Part shown: in pieces, positions 47,178 to 57,585 of the stretch
Layout of the letters: every line of letters starts with the position of its first letter
Numbering within the stretch: the stretch's first letter is position 1
NCBI GenBank assembly: GCA_017309115.1
Contig: JAFLEF010000002.1
Coordinates: forward strand, 62,001-126,000
DNA length: 64,000 nucleotides
Origin: Verrucomicrobiota bacterium
Lineage (GTDB): Bacteria > Verrucomicrobiota > Verrucomicrobiia > Limisphaerales > UBA9464
Direction of reading: 5' to 3'
Notes under the pieces: model-generated
Seen by the model: only the letters and a program-made list of their open reading frames with translations
Databases searched by the model: none
What the model was told of the DNA's origin: nothing
Program-made: the position numbers and the translations under genes

Positions 47178-50100
47178 TTACTTTCCGATCTTTTTCAAGA
47201 GATCAAGCGGGTTGAGTTGTTTGGCCGGAGCGTTGGTGGCGGGAGTGTTGGTCCCGACGGCCTGATTCGTATTGGAACCGCCTGGTAGCAATCCTTTAAG
47301 AAGGCTGCTCGCCGGGCCGGCATTGGTGGAGTCCTTGTTGCCCAATAGGCGATCAAGGGAACTGCCAGCTTTGTTGATTGCCTGATTGACCAAGGCCCCC
47401 GCCGCTCCCGGCAACTGGGCTGCCGCCTGAAGCAGTGCCTCCGGATTGATATCCTTCTTGGGCGCCCCGATGGTTCCCGCCAGCGTCAAGAATTGCGGCA
47501 ACGGCGTCATCTTGCCGTCCTTGGGCAATGAGACGGTCACCGGAATCCTCAGAGTGGAATCATTCAGATTGTCCGCCAGCTGAATCTTGCCCTGAGCTTC
47601 GGTGGCGAACGATGCACTGCGGACCTGGAAGGACTGCAGATTGACATCCCCCTGCCCGACCTCCATTTGGGATCCAATGAACTGAAGCGGCGATTGCGAC
47701 AAACTCGGAATCTTCAAGGATTCGGAGATTCCGCCCACCAGCATTTTCATAAGCGGGGACTGCAAGGCCGAGACTTGGTAATCCAGATTGGTGGCGGCGA
47801 ACTGAAGTCCGCCCTTCAGATTCTTGCGCAAGTCGGCTCCTTCCACGCCCGCACCGGCCAGGTTGAGCTTGCCGGTAACGGTGCCTTTCAGCTCCACCAG
47901 ATCCCCAGTCAGGAAGCTCTTGGCGATCGGGGGAATGGGCACGTTGTCCAGACCTGCCTGAAGGTCATATCGGTAGCCGGGCACGCTCACATCGAAATCC
48001 CCGGTCGCCGACACCGGCGCTCCATTCAACGTCAACGCGAAGGGTTTCAAGACCACCTTACCCCCCTGGATGTCCAGCTGGGTGACCCAATTGGAAATTG
48101 CGACTTCGCGCAGGAAGAACTTCGCAATCGAGGCGTCCAAGCTGAATTGCTTCAAAGGAAGGACAATGGGTTCACCCAATTTGCCGGACTCCGCCGGAGC
48201 CGGGGCAGCCGGCTTCGTCTCGGACTTCGCGGACGACGTCGAACCCGAAAACATGTTGTAAAGCGTGGTCAAATCGAGTCCGTCGCTGGTCAGCTTGAGC
48301 GAACTCGGCGCCGGTGCGTTGGTCGCCAGATCGAATTTGCCGACGGCCTGCAGACGGTTGGAGGCTCGCGCGGTCGCTCCGAGATCCACCAACAGTTTGC
48401 GCAAATCCAATGCCTGGGCGCGTTGCCCGGCATCCAATTCCACCCCGAAGGCCAACGGCTCCTGCGGCAACTTGCCGGCCGGATCCCGCGCGACCAACCG
48501 GCTGACCTTGAGCGCGGACTGAAGTGACGATTCCCCCTTCAAATCCACCTGAACCTTCCCGTTCAAATCCAATGAGACAGACCTCAGTTCGTTGGGCGCA
48601 ATCGCCGCGGCAAAGAATGGCCCGATCGCTTTCTCATTCAAATTGACCGTCCGGAATTCAAAGGCGCCACGTTGAGTTTGCGTCCCGAACTCTCCCGTCA
48701 CGTCCAAGCTGCCGCCAGCATCGGCACCCGAACGCAGCGCCAGCGATCCCCGTCGCAGGGACACGGTCTGCGATGTGACGGCCGCGGCGGTCTCCAGATT
48801 CGCCTGATAGTCCTTCAACGCCGCCCCATAGGCCGTTCCCGTCAGGCCAGTCAGACTGAATCCCGCGGTCCCGTTCGTCTGACCCGACCGAATGCTGACC
48901 TGGCCGGTGAACTGCGCGACTCCCGAACTCAACTGAACGCCCTCCACCGGCATCAGTTTAAGCGCCGCGGGCAGTTGAACCTCCACGGTAGTTTGCCCCC
49001 CGGCTTCGCCACTGCGTTGATTCCAGTTTACGAAGCCCGTGTACTTGGCGACTTCGCGACCGGCATGCCGCACGTCTCCCGTCGCCTGCTCCAACAGAAA
49101 CACCTGAAAGTCCTCGAGCGACCCGCCCAACTTCAGGCTCAGGTTCAAATCCTGAATTTGTGTGTCGCCCGCCTTCATCGCCACCTGCGTCACCGCGCTA
49201 TCCACGTTGAACTTCAAGCGGCGTCCATCCCGATCGGCAGTGACGCCAGCGTTCACGTTGACCCGGCCGCCGGGCAGATCCGGTCCGGCCACCGAGCGCC
49301 ACGGGGCGAGATCGAATTCCTTAACGGTCAAAGTATAGGTCGCCTCCCGAAAGCCAGGAGCCGATGCCGCCCACGCAATGTTCATCGGCCGATCCAGCGC
49401 GCCTCGCACCACGGCCGCGCCTCGCTGGTCCACGGACAAGTCCGCCTTTTCGATCAGGGCGGTCTTTTCCTCGAGATTGACCTGCAGCTTATAGTCGAAT
49501 CCGAGGTCCAGTTCCGGGGTCGTTCCGGCCGTTGACTTCACGGTCAGCTTGTTGATCGAAACCTTGCCAAACGACGCGAAAATTTGACCGCGTTGCGCCA
49601 GATCGATCCGTCCGGTCGCGCCAATGCTGGTCTGTCCGAAATCGGTCCCCGTCATGGCCCCCACCATTCCCAGGGCGGTCCGGTCGACGCCCTTGAGCTC
49701 GTAGGTGAGGCGCATCTCCTTCTTCTCGAGATCCACCGGACCCGTGACGTTGAGTTCTCCCGCCAGGCGGCCGGACTCCGAGATCGCCAACCGCAGCTGT
49801 TTGATCTCCGTGGGGGTGATATCCGTGGTGAGTTTCAGGGCAACCTTGCCGATGTCCCGGAAGGCGCCGCCCGCCTGTGACACCGCGAGGTCCACCGATC
49901 CATTCAACGCTCCGGGCTGCAGTTTCGCGTCCAACCCAAACCCCAGAGAACCGTCGAGTTTTGCAGCCAAAGTGTTGGTTCCACTCGCAGTCAGGCCAAC
50001 TCCCGCGGCGAGGGTCAGCTTGCTTTGAGCCCCGTTGACCAACTGATCCAGCGTCACATTCAGACCCGTGATCTCGGCGGTGGTGACCCCGTTGGTGGTC

Positions 50101-50597
50101 ACCAGCGACTGCCGAAGGGTTCCGTTCTTGAGGCTGATGTTGCGAACGTCGAGTTGGGCCGGCTGTCCGGGCGCACTGGGTTCCGACGGTTTCTGATCCT
50201 TGGCCAGATCGTCGAGGAGCTTCGACAGATTGCTCGTTCCGTCCGGCTTGCCAATCACGGTAATGACCGGCGTATCCACCGTGACTTCCTGAACCTTCAT
50301 CGTTCCCCCCAGAATGGCGAACAAACTGTACCGCAGACGGACTTCTTCGACGGTCGCCAGAGTCTCCGCTCCCTGCGGTGTCAACTTAAGCTTGCGGAGC
50401 GTCAGCGAGGAGAACGGGCTTAGCGAAACGCTTTCCACGGTGACATCACTGTGGAGCGCCGCGGCGACCCGAGGCAGAACCACGGCGCGAACGAAGGCGC
50501 CACTGGTCAGGACAAAATAGAGCACCACGAGGACCGCCGCGATCCCACCCAGAATCAGCGGCCAACGACGACGGGGTTTGTATTGGGAAGTATCCAT
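47178..50597 (-). CDS. AsmA/DUF748-like envelope protein
   Basis: This very large (1139-aa) protein is anchored by one N-terminal membrane segment (LILGGIAAVLVVLYFVLTS) with a long periplasmic part. The start of the exported region (VAAALHSDVTVESVSLSPFSSLTLRKLKL) and the repetitive beta-strand texture throughout match AsmA-like proteins, which form periplasm-spanning grooves that move phospholipids toward the outer membrane. The C-terminal region (VPIPPIAKSFLTGDLVELKGTVTGKLNLAG) is the AsmA-2-like part. The tail is rich in Asn, Pro, Ala and Thr and is probably disordered. hldD lies 12 bases upstream on the same strand. Confidence 0.82.
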   Translation of the reverse strand: MDTSQYKPRRRWPLILGGIAAVLVVLYFVLTSGAFVRAVVLPRVAAALHSDVTVESVSLSPFSSLTLRKLKLTPQGAETLATVEEVRLRYSLFAILGGTMKVQEVTVDTPVITVIGKPDGTSNLSKLLDDLAKDQKPSEPSAPGQPAQLDVRNISLKNGTLRQSLVTTNGVTTAEITGLNVTLDQLVNGAQSKLTLAAGVGLTASGTNTLAAKLDGSLGFGLDAKLQPGALNGSVDLAVSQAGGAFRDIGKVALKLTTDITPTEIKQLRLAISESGRLAGELNVTGPVDLEKKEMRLTYELKGVDRTALGMVGAMTGTDFGQTSIGATGRIDLAQRGQIFASFGKVSINKLTVKSTAGTTPELDLGFDYKLQVNLEEKTALIEKADLSVDQRGAAVVRGALDRPMNIAWAASAPGFREATYTLTVKEFDLAPWRSVAGPDLPGGRVNVNAGVTADRDGRRLKFNVDSAVTQVAMKAGDTQIQDLNLSLKLGGSLEDFQVFLLEQATGDVRHAGREVAKYTGFVNWNQRSGEAGGQTTVEVQLPAALKLMPVEGVQLSSGVAQFTGQVSIRSGQTNGTAGFSLTGLTGTAYGAALKDYQANLETAAAVTSQTVSLRRGSLALRSGADAGGSLDVTGEFGTQTQRGAFEFRTVNLNEKAIGPFFAAAIAPNELRSVSLDLNGKVQVDLKGESSLQSALKVSRLVARDPAGKLPQEPLAFGVELDAGQRAQALDLRKLLVDLGATARASNRLQAVGKFDLATNAPAPSSLKLTSDGLDLTTLYNMFSGSTSSAKSETKPAAPAPAESGKLGEPIVLPLKQFSLDASIAKFFLREVAISNWVTQLDIQGGKVVLKPFALTLNGAPVSATGDFDVSVPGYRYDLQAGLDNVPIPPIAKSFLTGDLVELKGTVTGKLNLAGAGVEGADLRKNLKGGLQFAATNLDYQVSALQSPLMKMLVGGISESLKIPSLSQSPLQFIGSQMEVGQGDVNLQSFQVRSASFATEAQGKIQLADNLNDSTLRIPVTVSLPKDGKMTPLPQFLTLAGTIGAPKKDINPEALLQAAAQLPGAAGALVNQAINKAGSSLDRLLGNKDSTNAGPASSLLKGLLPGGSNTNQAVGTNTPATNAPAKQLNPLDLLKKIGK

Positions 50598-50609
50598 GGC
50601 GTTCGGGGA

Positions 50610-51533
50610 TTAGGGGTTTTCCAAAAGACTCAGATACTCGGCAATTCCGGCAGCTGGGGAAAACTGGGGCGTGAAGCCGAGTTCGAACTTCACCCGCTTC
50701 ATGTCGGCCTGGGTGTGCGGTTGATAGAAGCTGTACGGATTCTCGATGTACTCCGCGGCCAACTCCGTTCCGAGTTCCCGATTCAACACCGAAATCACTT
50801 CGTTAAACGAGAAGGCAAAGCCGGAACCGCAGTTGTAGATCTCACTGCGCTTGCTGTTCAGGGCATGAATGGTTAGGGCCACGACGTCTTTGACGTACAC
50901 AAAGTCACGCTTGTGTTCGCCAGCCTTGAAGACGCGCGGGCGCTTACCGGCCTTCATTTGCTTGTAGAGCTGATAGATCATGCTGGCCGCAGCGCCCTTG
51001 TGGGCTTCCCGCGGTCCGAACACGTTGAAGTAGCGGAGACCGACGATCTTCCAGGCCGGAAAGCGTTTGGCGTAATCGCGGGCGAGATTGTCGAGCTGAA
51101 CCTTGCTGAACGCGTAAATGTTGGCCGGAGCGGGCGGCTGGTCCTCGCGTTGAATGCCCGAACAGATGCCATAGGTGGCGGCAGAGCTGGCGTACACCAC
51201 CGGTGTCTGATGAGGCTCTGCAAACTGCAGCAACCGCCGGAACCCTTCGATGTTATCCCGGGCCTGCAACGATTGGTCATTCACCGTGGTGTCGGTAATG
51301 GACGCCTCATGAAAAATCGCGTCGAAGACCAAATCGCGAAACTGGGCATTCCAATCCAGCCGGGAAACATCACCGGTTACAAAATCGCCCTTGAACCCCT
51401 GCAAATTGCGGAAATCGCCCGAACGAAAGTCATCGACGACCACGATCCGGGCCTCCGGATACCGGGTCTGAAGTTCCAGCGTCAGATTCGAGCCAATGAA
51501 GCCGGCCCCGCCGGTCACAAGGATGGTACGCAC
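50610..51533 (-). CDS. hldD: ADP-L-glycero-D-manno-heptose 6-epimerase
   Basis: This NADP-dependent short-chain epimerase makes ADP-L-glycero-D-manno-heptose for the LPS inner core. The 307-aa protein has TILVTGGAGFIGSNLTLELQ (Rossmann loop), VVVDDFRSGDFRNL, HEASITDTTV, and SSAATYG with catalytic Ser plus YAFSKVQLD (Tyr-x3-Lys). The C-terminal SFYQPHTQADMKRVKFELGF is characteristic. The GTG at 51533 gives the family start; the frame stays open to 51713, but that upstream stretch is Pro/Ser-rich and unlike the family. It is divergent from thrS across a 330-base region. Confidence 0.9.
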   Translation of the reverse strand: MRTILVTGGAGFIGSNLTLELQTRYPEARIVVVDDFRSGDFRNLQGFKGDFVTGDVSRLDWNAQFRDLVFDAIFHEASITDTTVNDQSLQARDNIEGFRRLLQFAEPHQTPVVYASSAATYGICSGIQREDQPPAPANIYAFSKVQLDNLARDYAKRFPAWKIVGLRYFNVFGPREAHKGAAASMIYQLYKQMKAGKRPRVFKAGEHKRDFVYVKDVVALTIHALNSKRSEIYNCGSGFAFSFNEVISVLNRELGTELAAEYIENPYSFYQPHTQADMKRVKFELGFTPQFSPAAGIAEYLSLLENP

Positions 51534-51700
51534 AGCCGCCGAAGGTAGGGTTGAGGACTTCCACGGCAAGCGCGATGGCGTCCGACTTGGCTCCGGCACG
51601 GGCGGATCGGCCGTTCCGAGGGGCGAATTCCAGGAACCCGACGGGGTCTTCCCCCGAGAATCCCGTTGCGGAAGCTGATCCAGTTTGGCTTTATCTGCGC

Positions 51701-51739
51701 GTGCCATCCGCAAACGTCAGCACGACGACGACCCGTTAG
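51701..51739 (+). CDS. Candidate thrS leader peptide with four Thr codons
   Basis: GTG at 51701 opens a 12-codon frame reading M-P-S-A-N-V-S-T-T-T-T-R before a TAG at 51737-51739. Codons 8-11 are ACG ACG ACG ACC. The same frame is open further upstream (ATG at 51575), so the true peptide could be longer, up to 54 aa, but in every version it ends with the Thr run. No Shine-Dalgarno sequence is visible. The stop codon's last base is the first base of the following hairpin. Position and composition match control peptides of amino-acid attenuators, in which ribosome stalling at scarce charged tRNA decides whether a downstream terminator forms. Confidence 0.7.
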   Translation: MPSANVSTTTTR

Positions 51740-51766
51740 CGTCCTTCCCGCCTGCCGGAAGGACGC
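51739..51766 (+). promoter_or_regulatory. Leader hairpin immediately after the Thr codons
   Basis: A 10-bp perfect stem (51739-51748 with 51757-51766) encloses the loop CGCCTGCC. Its 5' arm begins at the leader stop codon and would be covered by a ribosome stalled on the Thr codons. The freed segment 51749-51759 (CGCCT and CGGA) can instead pair with 51791-51799 (TTCG and AGGCG), which is the 3' arm of the terminator. This gives a candidate antiterminator of nine pairs (one of them G-U) with a two-base bulge. Confidence 0.6.
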
Positions 51767-51769
51767 CCC

Positions 51770-51812
51770 ACGCCTCGCACCCCGAACCGGTTCGAGGCGT
51801 TTTTGTTTCTTT
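51770..51812 (+). terminator. Intrinsic terminator in the thrS leader (attenuator)
   Basis: ACGCCTCG (51770-51777) pairs perfectly with CGAGGCGT (51793-51800) across a 15-base loop, followed by TTTTTGTTTCTTT. It lies about 50 bases before the thrS ATG. The gene to the left is on the opposite strand and the nearest upstream + strand gene ends at 45751, so the terminator has no other transcript to end. Transcription attenuation of thrS is the natural reading. Confidence 0.75.
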
Positions 51813-51863
51813 CGGTCTCTCCCACTGAACTGATCCTGCCCTTTTCTGATTCCGTAACCGCCC

Positions 51864-53861
51864 ATGAACACGAACGAACAACCACAGTACGAAGGCGCCA
51901 AATCCGAAGTCGAACGTAAGACTCTGGATCAGCGCTCCCAGATGGACGAGTTGTCGCGCCTGCGGCATTCCTGCGCCCACATTCTGGCCACCGCCGTCCT
52001 GCGACTCTGGCCGGATGCCTTGCTGGACATCGGACCGCCGACCGACGACGGCTTTTACTACGATTTTGAGCTGACCCATCGTTTCTCCCCGGACGACTTC
52101 GCCCGCATCGAGGAGGAGATGCGCAAAATTACCAAGGAGAACCAGGTCTTCGAGAAATCGATCAAGACCCGGGACGAGGCTCGCGCTTACTTCGAGTCCA
52201 AGGGCCAGAAGTTCAAGCTCGAGCGCCTCGGAGACATTCCCGAAGGCGAAGCGATCAGCTTCTATCAAAACGGCGAGTTTGTGGATCTATGCGCCGGTCC
52301 TCACGTCATGCGAACCGGCAATGTAAAGCCGGGCGGCATCAAACTTTTGCGCGTGGCCAGTGCCTACTTCCGGGGCAACGAGAAGAATCCCCAGCTGCAA
52401 CGCATTTACGGCACCGCCTTCAAGAACAAGGAGGACTTGGAGAATTGGGTGAAGTTGCAGGAGGAAGCCAAGAAGCGCGATCACCGCCGCATTGGCGCGG
52501 AGATGGGCTTGTTTGCCTTCGACGCCGAATATGTTGGCCCGGGCCTCGCCCTTTGGCTGCCCAAAGGCGGGGTGCTCGTCGAAGAATTGGAGAAGTTGGC
52601 CAAGGAGACGGAATTCCAAGCGGGCTACGTGCGCGTTCGCACGCCGCACTTGGCCAAGGAAAAGATGTACCGGACCAGCGGACACCTTCCCTACTACGCG
52701 GAATCGATGTTTCCGCCGATGGAGATGCTGGAGGAGGACGAGCGCAAAAAGCGGGAGCAGCTGCTCGAAAAACGGGCCGATCTGCTAAAGCTCGCCGAAT
52801 CCCTCGGCAACGCGATCTCTCCGAATCCCGCCGGCATGACTCCGGAATCAATTCAGGAAGAGGTGAACCGCATTGAGACCGAAGCCGGGTTCCTGGGCGG
52901 GCGCTACTACCTCAAGGCGATGAACTGTCCGCATCACCACCGCATTTTCGCGGCGGAACCGCGCAGCTACCGGGATCTTCCTCTACGCCTCGCAGAGTAC
53001 GGCACCTGTTACCGCTACGAGCAGTCCGGCGAGCTCTTCGGGCTCATGCGGGTGCGCGCCATGAACATGAATGACGCGCACATCTACTGCACCGCTGAAC
53101 AGTTCGCCGACGAGTTCCGGGCGGTGAACGAGATGTACCTGAAATACTTCAAGATCTTCGGTCTCGACCGGTATCAGATGCGCTTCAGCACTCACGATCC
53201 GGCTCGGCTCGGTCAGAAGTTCGTCAACGAACCGGAACTGTGGAAGCAGACCGAGGACATGGTTCGGCGGGTTCTGATCGAATCGGGCATCAACTACGTG
53301 GAGGTCCCCAACGAAGCGGCCTTCTACGGTCCCAAGATCGACGTACAGGTGTGGAGTGCCATTGGCCGCGAGTTCACCATCGCGACCAATCAGGTCGATT
53401 TCGCGGTACCGGCTCGCTTCGGACTCACCTACCGTGACCGGGACAACACCGACAAGACGCCGCTCTGCATTCATCGGGCGCCGCTCGGAACCCACGAACG
53501 GTTCATCGGATTCCTGATTGAGCATTACGCCGGCAACTTCCCGCTCTGGCTGGCGCCGGAACAGGTTCGCGTGCTCACTCTGGGCGAGAAAGAGCCGCTG
53601 GTGAATTACGCCAAGGGCATCGTGCAGGAATTGCGCTCCCAGTTCGTCCGCGTCGAAGGCGACTTCGGCACCAACCCGATTAAGGCGAAGATTGCCGATG
53701 CCGAGAAGGCCCGTGTCCACACGATGCTGGTCATCGGTGGTCGCGATCTCGAAGCTGGGCACGTCAGCGTCCGACTCCATAGCAAGGGTCCCCAAGGTGC
53801 CCGGCCACGGGATGAAGTGATCGCCGGAATCCTGGCCGACATCCGCGAACGGCGTGCCTGA
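51864..53861 (+). CDS. thrS: Threonine--tRNA ligase lacking the TGS domain
   Basis: This class II synthetase charges tRNA-Thr. The 665-aa protein starts almost directly with the N2 editing domain (LRHSCAHILATAVLRLWP, FYYDFEL, FVDLCAGPHV), without the roughly 60-residue N-terminal TGS domain seen in E. coli ThrRS. The zinc ligands of the active site are conserved: Cys in AMNCPHHH, His in NDAHIYCT and His in LCIHRAPLG. An extra charged helical segment of about 45-60 residues (EMLEEDERKKREQLLEKR onward) is inserted between motif 1 and the MNCP block. The C-terminal anticodon-binding domain begins near APEQVRVLTLG. Expression is probably attenuated through the Thr-codon leader upstream. Confidence 0.95.
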   Translation: MNTNEQPQYEGAKSEVERKTLDQRSQMDELSRLRHSCAHILATAVLRLWPDALLDIGPPTDDGFYYDFELTHRFSPDDFARIEEEMRKITKENQVFEKSIKTRDEARAYFESKGQKFKLERLGDIPEGEAISFYQNGEFVDLCAGPHVMRTGNVKPGGIKLLRVASAYFRGNEKNPQLQRIYGTAFKNKEDLENWVKLQEEAKKRDHRRIGAEMGLFAFDAEYVGPGLALWLPKGGVLVEELEKLAKETEFQAGYVRVRTPHLAKEKMYRTSGHLPYYAESMFPPMEMLEEDERKKREQLLEKRADLLKLAESLGNAISPNPAGMTPESIQEEVNRIETEAGFLGGRYYLKAMNCPHHHRIFAAEPRSYRDLPLRLAEYGTCYRYEQSGELFGLMRVRAMNMNDAHIYCTAEQFADEFRAVNEMYLKYFKIFGLDRYQMRFSTHDPARLGQKFVNEPELWKQTEDMVRRVLIESGINYVEVPNEAAFYGPKIDVQVWSAIGREFTIATNQVDFAVPARFGLTYRDRDNTDKTPLCIHRAPLGTHERFIGFLIEHYAGNFPLWLAPEQVRVLTLGEKEPLVNYAKGIVQELRSQFVRVEGDFGTNPIKAKIADAEKARVHTMLVIGGRDLEAGHVSVRLHSKGPQGARPRDEVIAGILADIRERRA

Positions 53862-53868
53862 TTCGTCC

Positions 53869-55254
53869 ATGGCTCCGGTGCATGATTGCCTGGTGGTGGG
53901 AGCCGGTTTGTCCGGTCTCATGGCCGCCCGGCAGCTGCACCGGGCCGGATTCTCCGTTCAGGTCTTCGAGGCCCGCCCGAGGGTGGGCGGGCGAATGTGG
54001 GGACGAACGCTACCGTCGGGGGCATGGATTGATTTCGGCGGTCAATGGGTAGGTAACACGCATCGACGCTTCCGAGCCCTTCTCGAGGAGTACGGAGCGC
54101 GTCGCTTTCCGTCGCCGGCACACGGGGCCACGGTGCTATGCTTTGACGGGCGGCGCTTCGAGTTTCGCGGATTCTTTCAGGGTTTTCCCGAAGGCGACGC
54201 GCCCGCGGTGAGCCCGGAGGAATGGCAGGACGCCATGGCCGCGTGGTCACGCCTCTCCGCCCTGGCAGCGCAATTGAGCTCGTTACCCCCGATGGACCAT
54301 CCTTCGCTCTCGGCCTGGGATGCGCAGTTGTTTTCCGACTGGATCCGAGAGAACACCCGAACCGCCTTCGGCTCCTGGTACTTTTCCTACATGGTCCGCG
54401 CGGTTGGATATCTGGGACCGGCGGAACCGCACGAGGTCTCTCTGCTCCACGTTCTCCTCGGACAACGATTCGCCCCGCAGGCGGACCATCCGGAAGCCGA
54501 GTTGATTCACGGTGGAGCGGGTCAGATTCCACACCGCATCGCCGATGAATTGGGGCGGCGGCTTCACCTGGACTGCCCGGTACACCGGGTTGAGTACTCG
54601 ACCGAAAGCCTAACCCTCGAGTCCGCGATGGGACGGTTCGCAGGTCGGTTTGCTATCCTGGCCCTGCCGCCACGTCTGATGGATCAGATCTCATTTTCGC
54701 CCGCGCTGCCCCTGCCCCGTCAACTCGTGCAACGCCACATGAAGATGGGCCGCTGCGCCAAGATTCTCGTGTCGTACGAGCGACCGTTCTGGCGGAATCG
54801 AGGACTCGCGGGAATTGGCATCGGCAATTTGCCCTGGATCGAATTGTGCGCCGACAGCAGTGATCCCGAGCAGGTCGTGGGCATTCTCGCCGTGTTTGTC
54901 GCGGGCGAGCGGTATACGCGATGGGCCACCCTTACCGACGAAGCGAGACGTTTAGCCCTACTGGAGGATCTGGCGACTTACTTTGGTCCAGAGGCGCGCG
55001 CACCGCTCAGCTACGACGAAGTCGACTGGCCCGCGGATCCGTGGACCCGCGGCGCGTTCGCCGGATATCTACCTCCAGGAGTTTGGAGCACTTCGGGGAG
55101 CGCACTTGCGGAACCCGTGGGGCCGCTGCATTGGGCCGGCACGGAGTCGGCGCCGGAATGGCCTGGTTTCTTTGAAGGCGCCTTGGCGGCTGCGGAGAAG
55201 GCTGCCGACGCCGTTGCGACACGACTCTCGAATTTAGGCCGGCTTCCCCAGTAA
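53869..55254 (+). CDS. Flavin monoamine oxidase-family protein
   Basis: This 461-aa FAD-dependent amine oxidase has the dinucleotide-binding CLVVGAGLSGLMAARQLHRAG and the GG doublet region ARPRVGGRMWGRTLP. It also has DFGGQWVGNTHRRF, and the C-terminal flavin-contacting LHWAGTESAPEWPGFFEGAL, the family hallmark. It should oxidise primary or secondary amines; the substrate is unknown. The ATG at 53869 is 7 bases past the thrS stop; a GTG at 53854, overlapping thrS, is an alternative. Its last 21 bases overlap the 3' end of the convergent ligA gene. Confidence 0.9.
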   Translation: MAPVHDCLVVGAGLSGLMAARQLHRAGFSVQVFEARPRVGGRMWGRTLPSGAWIDFGGQWVGNTHRRFRALLEEYGARRFPSPAHGATVLCFDGRRFEFRGFFQGFPEGDAPAVSPEEWQDAMAAWSRLSALAAQLSSLPPMDHPSLSAWDAQLFSDWIRENTRTAFGSWYFSYMVRAVGYLGPAEPHEVSLLHVLLGQRFAPQADHPEAELIHGGAGQIPHRIADELGRRLHLDCPVHRVEYSTESLTLESAMGRFAGRFAILALPPRLMDQISFSPALPLPRQLVQRHMKMGRCAKILVSYERPFWRNRGLAGIGIGNLPWIELCADSSDPEQVVGILAVFVAGERYTRWATLTDEARRLALLEDLATYFGPEARAPLSYDEVDWPADPWTRGAFAGYLPPGVWSTSGSALAEPVGPLHWAGTESAPEWPGFFEGALAAAEKAADAVATRLSNLGRLPQ

Positions 55255-57585
55255 CTCCCGAAATTCCGCCTCGTTCAAAATGCGCACACCCAGCGACCGC
55301 GCCTTGTCGAGCTTCGACCCGGCACTGTCCCCGGCCAACACGTAGTCGGTCTTACGGCTCACCGATCCCGACACATCACCACCCGCTTCCCGAATCAAGG
55401 CCGACGCTTCGTCGCGCGAAAGCGTGGGCAAGGTTCCGGTCAGGACAAAAGTCTTCCCGGCCACAGGAGAATCTGACGGCACTGCGGCGGCCACCGGGGT
55501 CGGTATGGTGCCAATTGGATCAATGCCCAACTCCTCCAGCCGGCTTAGGGTTTTCTGGCCCGCAGCCGAGGCGAAGTATTCGAGCACCGAGTTGGCCGCC
55601 ACCGGTCCGACTTCAGTGAGACGGGCCTTCAATCCTTCACGCTCCAAGCGATCTTCCAGAGCCGCAATTTCCGTGGAGAGAACCTGGTAACGCGCCTTTC
55701 GCTCCTCCAGTTCCACCGGGGTCTTCGGCGGATTCTTCCGGGATTTCGGGGAGATTAGGTCGCGTTCGGTCTTTTTCTGACCGAGCTCCCGAATCGCCTG
55801 CAACGTGGGAGACTGCGCCAGGTCACGCAGGGAACGATGCACCTGGGCGAGCTGCCACGCCGTCTGTTCGCCCACCTCGGGAATCGCCAGCGCGAGAATC
55901 CAGCGGTGCAGCGGCGCCTGTTTGGACCGAGCCACGGCGTCCACCACTTTGCCGGCATTCTTCTCGCCGAACGTGCGCGGTTCCTCCTCCGTTCCGAGAT
56001 TGAGTCGGCCCAATTGTTCTTGAGTGAGTCGGAACAAATCCAGCGGTTCATCCACCCACCCACGCTCCACCAGTTTCTCCGCGACGATTCCTCCGAGCGA
56101 CTCGATATCGAGCGCCTTCCGCTGCGCGAAGTACTCGACGCGGCGGGTCTTCTGGGCCGGACAACCCGCCACATTCTCGCAGCGCCAAGCCACTTCATCG
56201 GCGGAACCAGCAGACACCTTCTCCCGCGCGATGGATCCACCACACGCCGGACAGCGCCCACCAATGTGCGCCACCAAATCAAATTCCACTGCCTCGGGCG
56301 GACGCTTCGACTTCACCACTTCCAACACCTCGGGAATCACCATGCCCGCCTTGCGAATGACCACAGTATCGCCGATGCGGATGTCCTTGCGGCGAATCTC
56401 ATCCTCGTTGTGCAACGTGGCGCGGGAGATCGTGGATCCCTGGACGAATACGGGCTCGAGCTCGGCCACCGGGGTAAGCACTCCGGTGCGACCGACCTGG
56501 ATGGTGATGGTCCGCAAGAGCGTCTCGGCCGGCGTGATCCATGGCACCGGTTTGTGCACAATCGCGTAGCCCGGGGAACGCGTCTTGGCAGGTATCCGCT
56601 CCCAGTCGGTCATCGAATCGACCTTGAGAACCACGCCATCAATTTCGTAGGCCAGTTGCCGCCGCAAATCCCGCTCCTCGTCATAGTGGGCCACGACCTC
56701 CTTCCGATAACTGGTCAGGATGTCCTCCATGCTATCACCCATCCACCACAGTCGTTGAGTGGGCAGACCGAACTGAGCTAGGGCGCGCAAGGTTGCGGCG
56801 TGGCTGGTGAACTCGATGCCTTCGCAGGCGCCCACGGCGTAGAACACCGCGCTCAGCGGGCGTTCCGCGACCAGTTTGGGATCGAGTTGTTTGAGCGCCC
56901 CGGCGGTGGCGTTGCGGGCGTTGGGGAAGGCTTTTTCCCCGGCGGCCACCAGGCGGGCATTTAACTCCTCGAATTCGCGAATCGGCATGTACGCCTCCCC
57001 GCGGACTTCCAGCACGGCGGGCGGATTCGGAACATTCAGCTCGAGCGGAATGGCCCGAATGGTTCGCAGATTGGCGGTGATGTCGTCGCCATACTCGCCA
57101 TCCCCCCGGGTCACACCCAGCACCAGCTTCCCATGGTGGTAATGAACGCTCAGCGAAACCCCATCGACCTTAGGTTCCATCACGTACCCCACCGCCTCCT
57201 GCTTCAACACTCCCCGAATTTTGGTGTCGAACTCCAACAGTCGCGCCAGGGTGTTCTCGTCCTGAAGTCGATTTCGCACCACCCGATCCGGCTCCTCGCT
57301 GGAGTCCGGATGCTCCGCCGCTTCGACCTTCTCAAGGGACAACATGGGGATCCGGTGACGGACCCTTTGGAACTTGTCGGTGGGTGCTCCGCCCACCCGC
57401 TGGGTGGGAGATTCCGGAGTGACGAGATCCGGATGCTCCCGCTCGAGGTCGACCAACTGTTGATACAATCGATCATAATCGAAATCGCTGATCTCGGGTT
57501 CTGCCCGGACGTAATAGGCGATGTCATGGCGGCGGATTTCCTGGGCGAGCCGGGCATGGCGCTCTGAAGCAGCGGCGGGAGTCAT
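55234..57585 (-). CDS. ligA: NAD-dependent DNA ligase with extra insertions
   Basis: This enzyme seals nicks in replication and repair using NAD. The adenylation domain has HDIAYYVRAEPEISDFDYDRL (Ia) and the nucleotidyl-attachment motif MEPKVDGVSLS (KxDG). OB and zinc-finger regions follow, with CPACGG and WRCENVAGCPAQKTRR, then helix-hairpin-helix repeats and a C-terminal BRCT domain (AGKTFVLTGTLPTLSRDEASALI). At 783 aa it is about 110 residues longer than E. coli LigA. Extra sequence lies after LSLEKVEAAEH (about 20-30 aa) and in the HhH region (about 70 aa, ending in a charged helix EERKARYQVLSTEIAALEDRLE). The ATG at 57585 fits the family start. Confidence 0.95.
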   Translation of the reverse strand: MTPAAASERHARLAQEIRRHDIAYYVRAEPEISDFDYDRLYQQLVDLEREHPDLVTPESPTQRVGGAPTDKFQRVRHRIPMLSLEKVEAAEHPDSSEEPDRVVRNRLQDENTLARLLEFDTKIRGVLKQEAVGYVMEPKVDGVSLSVHYHHGKLVLGVTRGDGEYGDDITANLRTIRAIPLELNVPNPPAVLEVRGEAYMPIREFEELNARLVAAGEKAFPNARNATAGALKQLDPKLVAERPLSAVFYAVGACEGIEFTSHAATLRALAQFGLPTQRLWWMGDSMEDILTSYRKEVVAHYDEERDLRRQLAYEIDGVVLKVDSMTDWERIPAKTRSPGYAIVHKPVPWITPAETLLRTITIQVGRTGVLTPVAELEPVFVQGSTISRATLHNEDEIRRKDIRIGDTVVIRKAGMVIPEVLEVVKSKRPPEAVEFDLVAHIGGRCPACGGSIAREKVSAGSADEVAWRCENVAGCPAQKTRRVEYFAQRKALDIESLGGIVAEKLVERGWVDEPLDLFRLTQEQLGRLNLGTEEEPRTFGEKNAGKVVDAVARSKQAPLHRWILALAIPEVGEQTAWQLAQVHRSLRDLAQSPTLQAIRELGQKKTERDLISPKSRKNPPKTPVELEERKARYQVLSTEIAALEDRLEREGLKARLTEVGPVAANSVLEYFASAAGQKTLSRLEELGIDPIGTIPTPVAAAVPSDSPVAGKTFVLTGTLPTLSRDEASALIREAGGDVSGSVSRKTDYVLAGDSAGSKLDKARSLGVRILNEAEFRELLGKPA

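Follow-up and report, generated by a model that had tools for sequence, protein, structure and literature searches.

Introduction

Leader-peptide attenuation of a synthetase gene is known from pheST of enteric bacteria. For the threonyl-tRNA synthetase gene, thrS, known control works without a leader peptide: in E. coli the enzyme (ThrRS) binds its own thrS mRNA in a feedback mechanism, and in Firmicutes thrS is under the T-box. The thrABC operon has a leader that senses threonine, as proposed here, but this operon is biosynthetic.

Leaders have been described for several other genes. Leader-peptide attenuators with antiterminator hairpins are described for leuS and trpS2 in Streptomyces (PMC1262725), a leader-peptide attenuator of the synthetase gene for hisS/hisZ in bacilli (PMC2965389) and a uORF motif for cysS in Rhodobacterales (PMC8632094). 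At ilvB1 of Mycobacterium tuberculosis, the ribosome at the stop codon is described as masking the antiterminator, which forms when the ribosome is stalled upstream (PMC13236596). Leaderless polycysteine short ORFs of mycobacteria are cited as a case of translation attenuation (Canestrari et al. 2020, as cited in PMC13236596), and PMC1262725 reports no obvious terminators for the mycobacterial cys leaders.

Here, a stretch of 64,000 nt from a Verrucomicrobiota bacterium (the window) was analysed, in which a Thr-codon attenuator of thrS had been predicted from the sequence. In a literature search that left subscription journals mostly outside its scope, a Thr-leader attenuator of thrS in Verrucomicrobiota was not found described. 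The thrS leader shares with the leuS/trpS2, hisS/hisZ, cysS and pheST leaders a short ORF with cognate codons in front of a synthetase gene and a terminator or hairpin, while those systems belong to other amino acids and phyla. It differs from the Streptomyces leuS/trpS2 leaders in that the hairpins abut without overlap (except in one genome, G117) and in that the ORF may be leaderless. The mycobacterial polycysteine ORFs are likewise short, leaderless and rich in consecutive codons for the amino acid being sensed, an arrangement that the thrS leader may have. The M. tuberculosis ilvB1 attenuator has the polarity favoured below for thrS; unlike the thrS leader, it combines a mutually exclusive antiterminator and terminator with a biosynthesis operon and a 166-nt leader (PMC13236596).

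Results

The leader ORF was read on the + strand at 51701-51739 as GTG CCA TCC GCA AAC GTC AGC ACG ACG ACG ACC CGT TAG, 12 codons and a stop. The GTG start would give the peptide (M)PSANVSTTTTR*, perhaps translated from a leaderless message. The four Thr control codons are ACG ACG ACG ACC (51722-51733), and Thr codons recur at this place in the elements of relatives. Hairpin 1 has 10 bp with arms GCGTCCTTCC (51739-51748) and GGAAGGACGC (51757-51766), its first base being the G of the leader TAG stop at 51739, and is indicated by sequence, fold and covariation. It is followed by an intrinsic terminator at 51770-51804, seen in sequence and fold, with arms ACGCCTCG (51770-51777) and CGAGGCGT (51793-51800), then TTTTGTTT; the TTTT tail runs to 51804 and continues as GTTT to 51808. 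The gene presumed to be regulated, thrS, lies on the + strand at 51864-53861 with its ATG at 51864. The Thr-ended frame (51701-51739), the 10-bp hairpin from the last base of its stop (51739-51766) and the 8-bp terminator with a T-rich tail of the original prediction are thus all present, and only the distance from the U-tract to the thrS ATG, predicted as about 50 bases, had to be corrected to about 60 nt. As also predicted, the leader has no + strand gene upstream of it; an epimerase-like ORF, its neighbour on that side, is encoded by the − strand. The word GGACGCC (51761-51767, + strand), made up of the lower 3′ arm of hairpin 1 and the next base, copies the beginning of the terminator 5′ arm (ACGCC) and is a potential partner of GGCGTTT at 51796-51802.

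The fold of 51700-51815 has an energy of -44 kcal/mol (z -3.26), equalled by none of 200 shuffles, and the terminator pattern occurs once in the window against an expectation of 0. A generic terminator and promoter scan of 50000-57000 listed neither the thrS-leader terminator nor a promoter; the terminator was missed because its loop exceeds the 8-nt limit of the scan. No T-box fold was found, the only Rfam family in the window being one tRNA, and 51400-52000, searched at E ≤ 5, yielded three weak matches, none of them related. The source genome (G000, 7.5 Mb, 95% complete) carries one full-length copy of thrS. ThrS residues of about 293-346 are absent or diverged in many relatives, in which protein matches split at about 292/347.

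The gene thrS was found in 47 of the 51 genomes of the family, and in 29 of these 47 the terminator pattern occurs within 600 nt upstream of it. Placed side by side, the 29 family elements show the same order of parts. A covariance model built from them with the leader included (R1), and so trained on the window's own family, added G015 and G022, where the element sits further upstream. When 294 genomes of the order were searched with R1, 155 matched at E ≤ 0.1 and 139, which may carry divergent elements, did not; 116 matched at E ≤ 1e-5, spread over 33 families (Verrucomicrobiota subdivision 3). From a part of these 116 genomes, 80 match regions were fetched, including two weak ones in G136. 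In 75 of the 80, thrS lies downstream on the same strand at a median distance of about 100 nt (within 200 nt in 54; beyond 400 nt in 15, counted irrespective of the sequence between), and in three loci the ThrS match starts so near the element that the true start codon has to lie inside the extrapolated gene start. The five fetched matches without thrS comprise two that run into a contig end (L115, L125), two weak matches that are ordinary terminators behind genes (L165, L166) and L106. The last, in G111, scores 57.6 bits, and the 1.2 kb downstream of it contain no thrS.

Loci were also retrieved with the ThrS protein, and 41 of 80 carry the element. A second model, from which the leader was left out (R2, built from 85 of the 107 elements), found the same 41 of these 80 loci and L210. 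Searched beyond the order, R2 matched 175 of 384 genomes of the class at E ≤ 0.01, the best match outside the order scoring 35.2 bits. None of eight out-of-order and ten weak in-order matches that were read precedes thrS; judged by eye and not individually, most of them resemble terminators that follow the end of a gene. Within the reach of these models, the element appears to be confined to one order.

Genomes that keep thrS and have lost either the Thr codons or the terminator had been named as evidence against the attenuator. Among the 39 ThrS-retrieved loci without an element (of which L172 and L174, with less than 65 nt of upstream sequence, are too short to judge), two (L210, L223) have a strong terminator no more than 100 nt from thrS and lack a Thr frame, and none has a Thr frame beside a terminator. 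Loss is therefore mostly joint. Two further loci, L294 (G090, the genome of L210) and L295 (G168), have thrS with a similar terminator and no Thr run; they are possible decaying attenuators. In genus g8 many genomes lack the element and have another gene ending shortly 5′ of thrS, as seen by eye; G029, G030, G037 and G040 keep the element.

The leader ORF had initially been chosen for the most Thr codons. To avoid that bias, frames were set by the stop codon nearest hairpin 1, with Thr ignored. Such a stop is present in 107 of 108 elements, and L050 (ACG ACC ACC TGA, further from the stem) was omitted from the stop statistics. The stop overlaps hairpin 1 at a single fixed offset in 100 of the 107. 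Counted back from the stop, Thr occupies codon −2 in 105 elements (98%), −3 in 102 (95%), −4 in 94 (88%) and −5 in 60, so that the leader ends in Thr codons, one further codon and the stop. Thr does not occur at −1 to −3 of the other two frames, and its highest share in them is 28%, at −5 of frame 2. All four Thr codons are used (ACG 167, ACC 89, ACT 71, ACA 50), and at least three of the last seven codons are Thr in 98 of 107 elements. The ORF has 8-15 codons in 106 of 107 elements (10-13 in 93), one being called at 24. At the ThrS-retrieved loci matched by R2, two of the 42 matches (L203, L210) were left out, with the stop not in range; the last seven codons hold three to five Thr in 36 of the other 40, two in three and one in one. 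The genomes in this count overlap those of the 107 elements, so it serves as a control for selection and adds few species.

Promoter-like words stand upstream of the ORF. In the window, a -35-like element TTGCGG (51666-51671, + strand, position counted on the sequence) and a -10-like element CTTTAT (51689-51694, + strand) are separated by a 17-nt spacer, the latter ending 6 nt 5′ of the start codon. In other members of the order the -35-like word is mostly TTGCCA. Across the order, 98 of 107 elements have TTGC[CG] among the 75 nt upstream, against 18.6 expected from shuffles; in 64 elements it is accompanied by a spaced -10-like word, against 1.6 expected. The best-scoring gap from the -10-like word to the start codon is 6 nt in 60 of 107 elements, with gaps of 5-9 scored. 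If these words are real promoters, their position directly 5′ of the start codon would make the leader ORF leaderless, with transcription beginning at or beside the start codon.

Covariation was counted in MAFFT alignments (A1 and A5). Doubly changed cells numbered 47 against 17.9 in shuffled alignments of 29 sequences, and 171 against 53.9 for 85 sequences (A5, covering 85 of the 107 elements, with near-duplicates and the lower-stem variants L104 and L151 left out). A third alignment, A3, gave 193 against 73; its counts lean towards the R1 structure because it was fitted to it. Almost all covariation falls in hairpin 1, chiefly in its upper four pairs, and the lower six pairs are nearly fixed. 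In a later recount over all 108 elements, these six pairs were standard, with transitions only, in 103, the deviants being L003, L104, L122, L151 and L164. In L151 (G145) and L164 (G060) the lower stem of hairpin 1 reads GGGTTC/GAAC... and lacks the ACGC copy, while the Thr codons and terminator are kept. The GC stem and the U-tract of the terminator are conserved; 96.2% of stem cells are paired in the 85 sequences, and little variation is seen except at the inner pairs. Of the signs to be sought in relatives under the original proposal, the Thr frame is conserved and hairpin 1 shows compensatory changes; the terminator barely varies, and the alternative pairing is no better than in shuffled sequences.

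Hairpin 1 and the terminator lie 0-3 nt apart in the minimum-energy folds of 103 of the 107 elements. In L104 (G117) the 3′ arm of hairpin 1 overlaps the terminator arm by about four bases, and the two are mutually exclusive; the free minimum-energy fold there is the terminator (-37.4), hairpin 1 costing 4.6 kcal/mol more.

The antiterminator of the original prediction, in which 51749-51759 in loop 1 would pair with 51791-51799, was rejected: the corresponding segments of relatives form 3.64 bp on average against 3.59 in shuffled sequences (105 of 107 parsed). A classical antiterminator was sought in nascent folds of the 107 sequences before emergence of the 3′ arm, with the ribosome masked, and only varied weak pairings, none of them consistent, were seen. 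At least four bases of the terminator 5′ arm are paired in 52 of 107 such folds with the A-site at −2 and in 64 of 107 with the ribosome at the stop. No consistent, mutually exclusive antiterminator capturing the terminator 5′ arm was found in the 107 sequences, G117 alone having an exclusive overlap. A decoy pairing of the hairpin 1 3′ arm on the terminator 3′ side was considered as well. Complementarity between the two amounts to 6.7 bp against 4.7 in shuffled sequences (105 of 107 elements), and the lower 3′ arm RRACGC could form six pairs with GCGUUU in 75 of 85 elements and five in the other 10. The pairing cannot show covariation, since GCGUUU hardly varies. It is thus possible almost everywhere, and it was set aside as a candidate, having neither covariation nor thermodynamic effect (probability 0.016-0.03 with hairpin 1 open).

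A ribosome covers about 15 nt beyond the first P-site base, and this reach was used to place it on the leader. In silico, the base of hairpin 1 is closed with a probability of 0.94 when the A-site holds Thr −5 or −4, 0.58 at −3, 0.02 at −2 and 0 at the stop; in these models the position of the ribosome would thus alter the leader fold. With this footprint, hairpin 1 lies outside the ribosome in 100 of 107 elements when the A-site is at the first Thr codon, at odds with the earlier proposal that a stalled ribosome opens it; at the stop, 10-11 nt of its 5′ side are covered in 105 of 107. Opening hairpin 1 had further been predicted to allow read-through. The terminator pairing probability hardly responds, at 0.91 with hairpin 1 opened against 0.93 (106 of 107 parsed; six of these fall below 0.5 even without a ribosome, supposedly through mis-located arms). 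Pairing energies link hairpin 1 to the terminator nowhere but in G117, so elsewhere the link would have to be steric or kinetic.

Discussion

A short Thr-codon ORF and a predicted terminator before thrS, as found in trp/his-type attenuators, are both apparent in this leader. Conservation of the element strongly supports the predicted ribosome-sensing, Thr-codon attenuator of thrS, and we regard a Thr-responsive attenuator as such as very likely. It is likely, on the comparative evidence, that a ribosome on the leader attenuates transcription and thereby tunes thrS expression to the amount of charged Thr-tRNA. Since an exclusive antiterminator of the classical type was not encountered, the leader departs from the classical leader-peptide attenuators that it otherwise resembles.

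In the mechanism favoured here, transcription would start at or beside the leader start codon. With ample Thr-tRNA, the ribosome would reach the UAG and cover the 5′ arm of hairpin 1; with hairpin 1 blocked, the terminator would close and transcription would stop. With scarce Thr-tRNA, the ribosome would halt at the first Thr codon and hairpin 1 would fold. Because folded hairpin 1 directly abuts the terminator, it would impede the final terminator base pairs within the exit channel for the RNA, and the polymerase would read into thrS. In a variant of this step, GCGU in the 5′ arm of hairpin 1 might capture the second copy of ACGC. Being free at the first Thr codon, covered at the stop and adjacent to the terminator, hairpin 1 is favoured as the termination-hindering element. 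This polarity, with hairpin 1 hindering termination and being erased by a ribosome that finishes the peptide, is held at a little under even confidence, and the steric step between hairpin 1 and terminator is more tentative than that. Several points speak against the favoured explanation. In G117 the free fold prefers the terminator to hairpin 1, and 139 of the 294 order genomes are without a match at E ≤ 0.1. Hairpin 1 could refold after release from the stop, so the ribosome would have to dwell there; the energy models give ribosome position no effect on the terminator (0.93 against 0.91), a steric step lying outside such models; and Thr conservation peaks beside hairpin 1, which would suit the opposite polarity better.

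The main rival is that opposite polarity, which stands nearer to the original prediction. Closed hairpin 1 would here permit termination; a ribosome slow at Thr −2 or −3 would cover the lower 5′ arm, and the freed 3′ arm GGACGC(C) would pair with GGCGUUU and spoil the base of the terminator. The rise in Thr conservation towards codon −2 fits this reading, as does the model result that an A-site at Thr −2 leaves the lower stem of hairpin 1 open (0.02, against 0.94 at −4). It would also account for lower-stem pairs that stay standard, with transitions only, in 103 of 108 elements while the upper pairs vary freely, although five elements (L003, L104, L122, L151, L164) deviate in the lower stem. 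The excess complementarity on the 3′ side (6.7 against 4.7 bp shuffled) points the same way, but the terminator is still favoured (0.91) with hairpin 1 open and the decoy pairing reaches 0.016-0.03. Moreover, a ribosome at the first Thr codon leaves hairpin 1 closed in 100 of 107 elements, and one at the stop opens it fully, which would give read-through at plentiful Thr unless release is fast. On balance we consider the opposite polarity unlikely.

Direct binding of ThrRS or tRNA-Thr to the leader, with incidental Thr codons, would resemble the binding of ThrRS to its own mRNA in E. coli or of tRNA to T-boxes. It would fit a terminator stem whose sequence is conserved beyond the needs of pairing, but it is highly improbable in view of the use of all four Thr codons in a stop-ended frame and the absence of an Rfam family at gathering and relaxed thresholds. 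Equally remote is the reading that the terminator is an ordinary one that ends a short RNA and plays no part in thrS regulation: very similar stems do stand behind ordinary genes in relatives (for example L165, L280), but by eye such sites lack the Thr frame, and 75 of 80 elements precede thrS.

Leader-peptide attenuation may be in wider use in the genus. All five genomes of the genus (G000-G004; L303-L307) carry a strong terminator upstream of ilvB, at -18.6 to -23.4 kcal/mol, together with an ORF rich in Val (for example MKRITSVVVLVVGGDTAAGTCCA), the ORFs having been picked for most V/I/L; on this sequence pattern, the ilvB leader is probably a branched-chain amino-acid attenuator. No strong terminator was found in the upstream regions of PheS and homoserine dehydrogenase, for which gene starts were located crudely. 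A purA-like ORF (named by eye) at L284 (G055) and L285 (G094) is closely preceded by a promoter-like word and a terminator of the form CCCCGAA/TTCGGGG, a candidate for leader control of purA.

Returning to the favoured polarity at thrS, it may be a switch without strand competition, in which hairpin 1 is an abutting steric antiterminator that keeps the base of the terminator open in RNA polymerase and is erased by a ribosome completing a leaderless Thr peptide. This formulation is speculative, although we give it slightly more credence than the opposite polarity. If true, abutting-hairpin attenuation would be a mechanism distinct from trp-type alternative pairing, conserved through one order of Verrucomicrobiota. 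Through the thrS leader, the range of leader-peptide attenuation would come to include thrS among its genes and Verrucomicrobiota among its phyla. More than 100 natural variants hold a fixed geometry of Thr codons, stop, hairpin 1 and terminator without a visible classical antiterminator, and they let one ask whether a ribosome may govern a terminator by way of an adjacent hairpin when the two do not pair in mutually exclusive ways.
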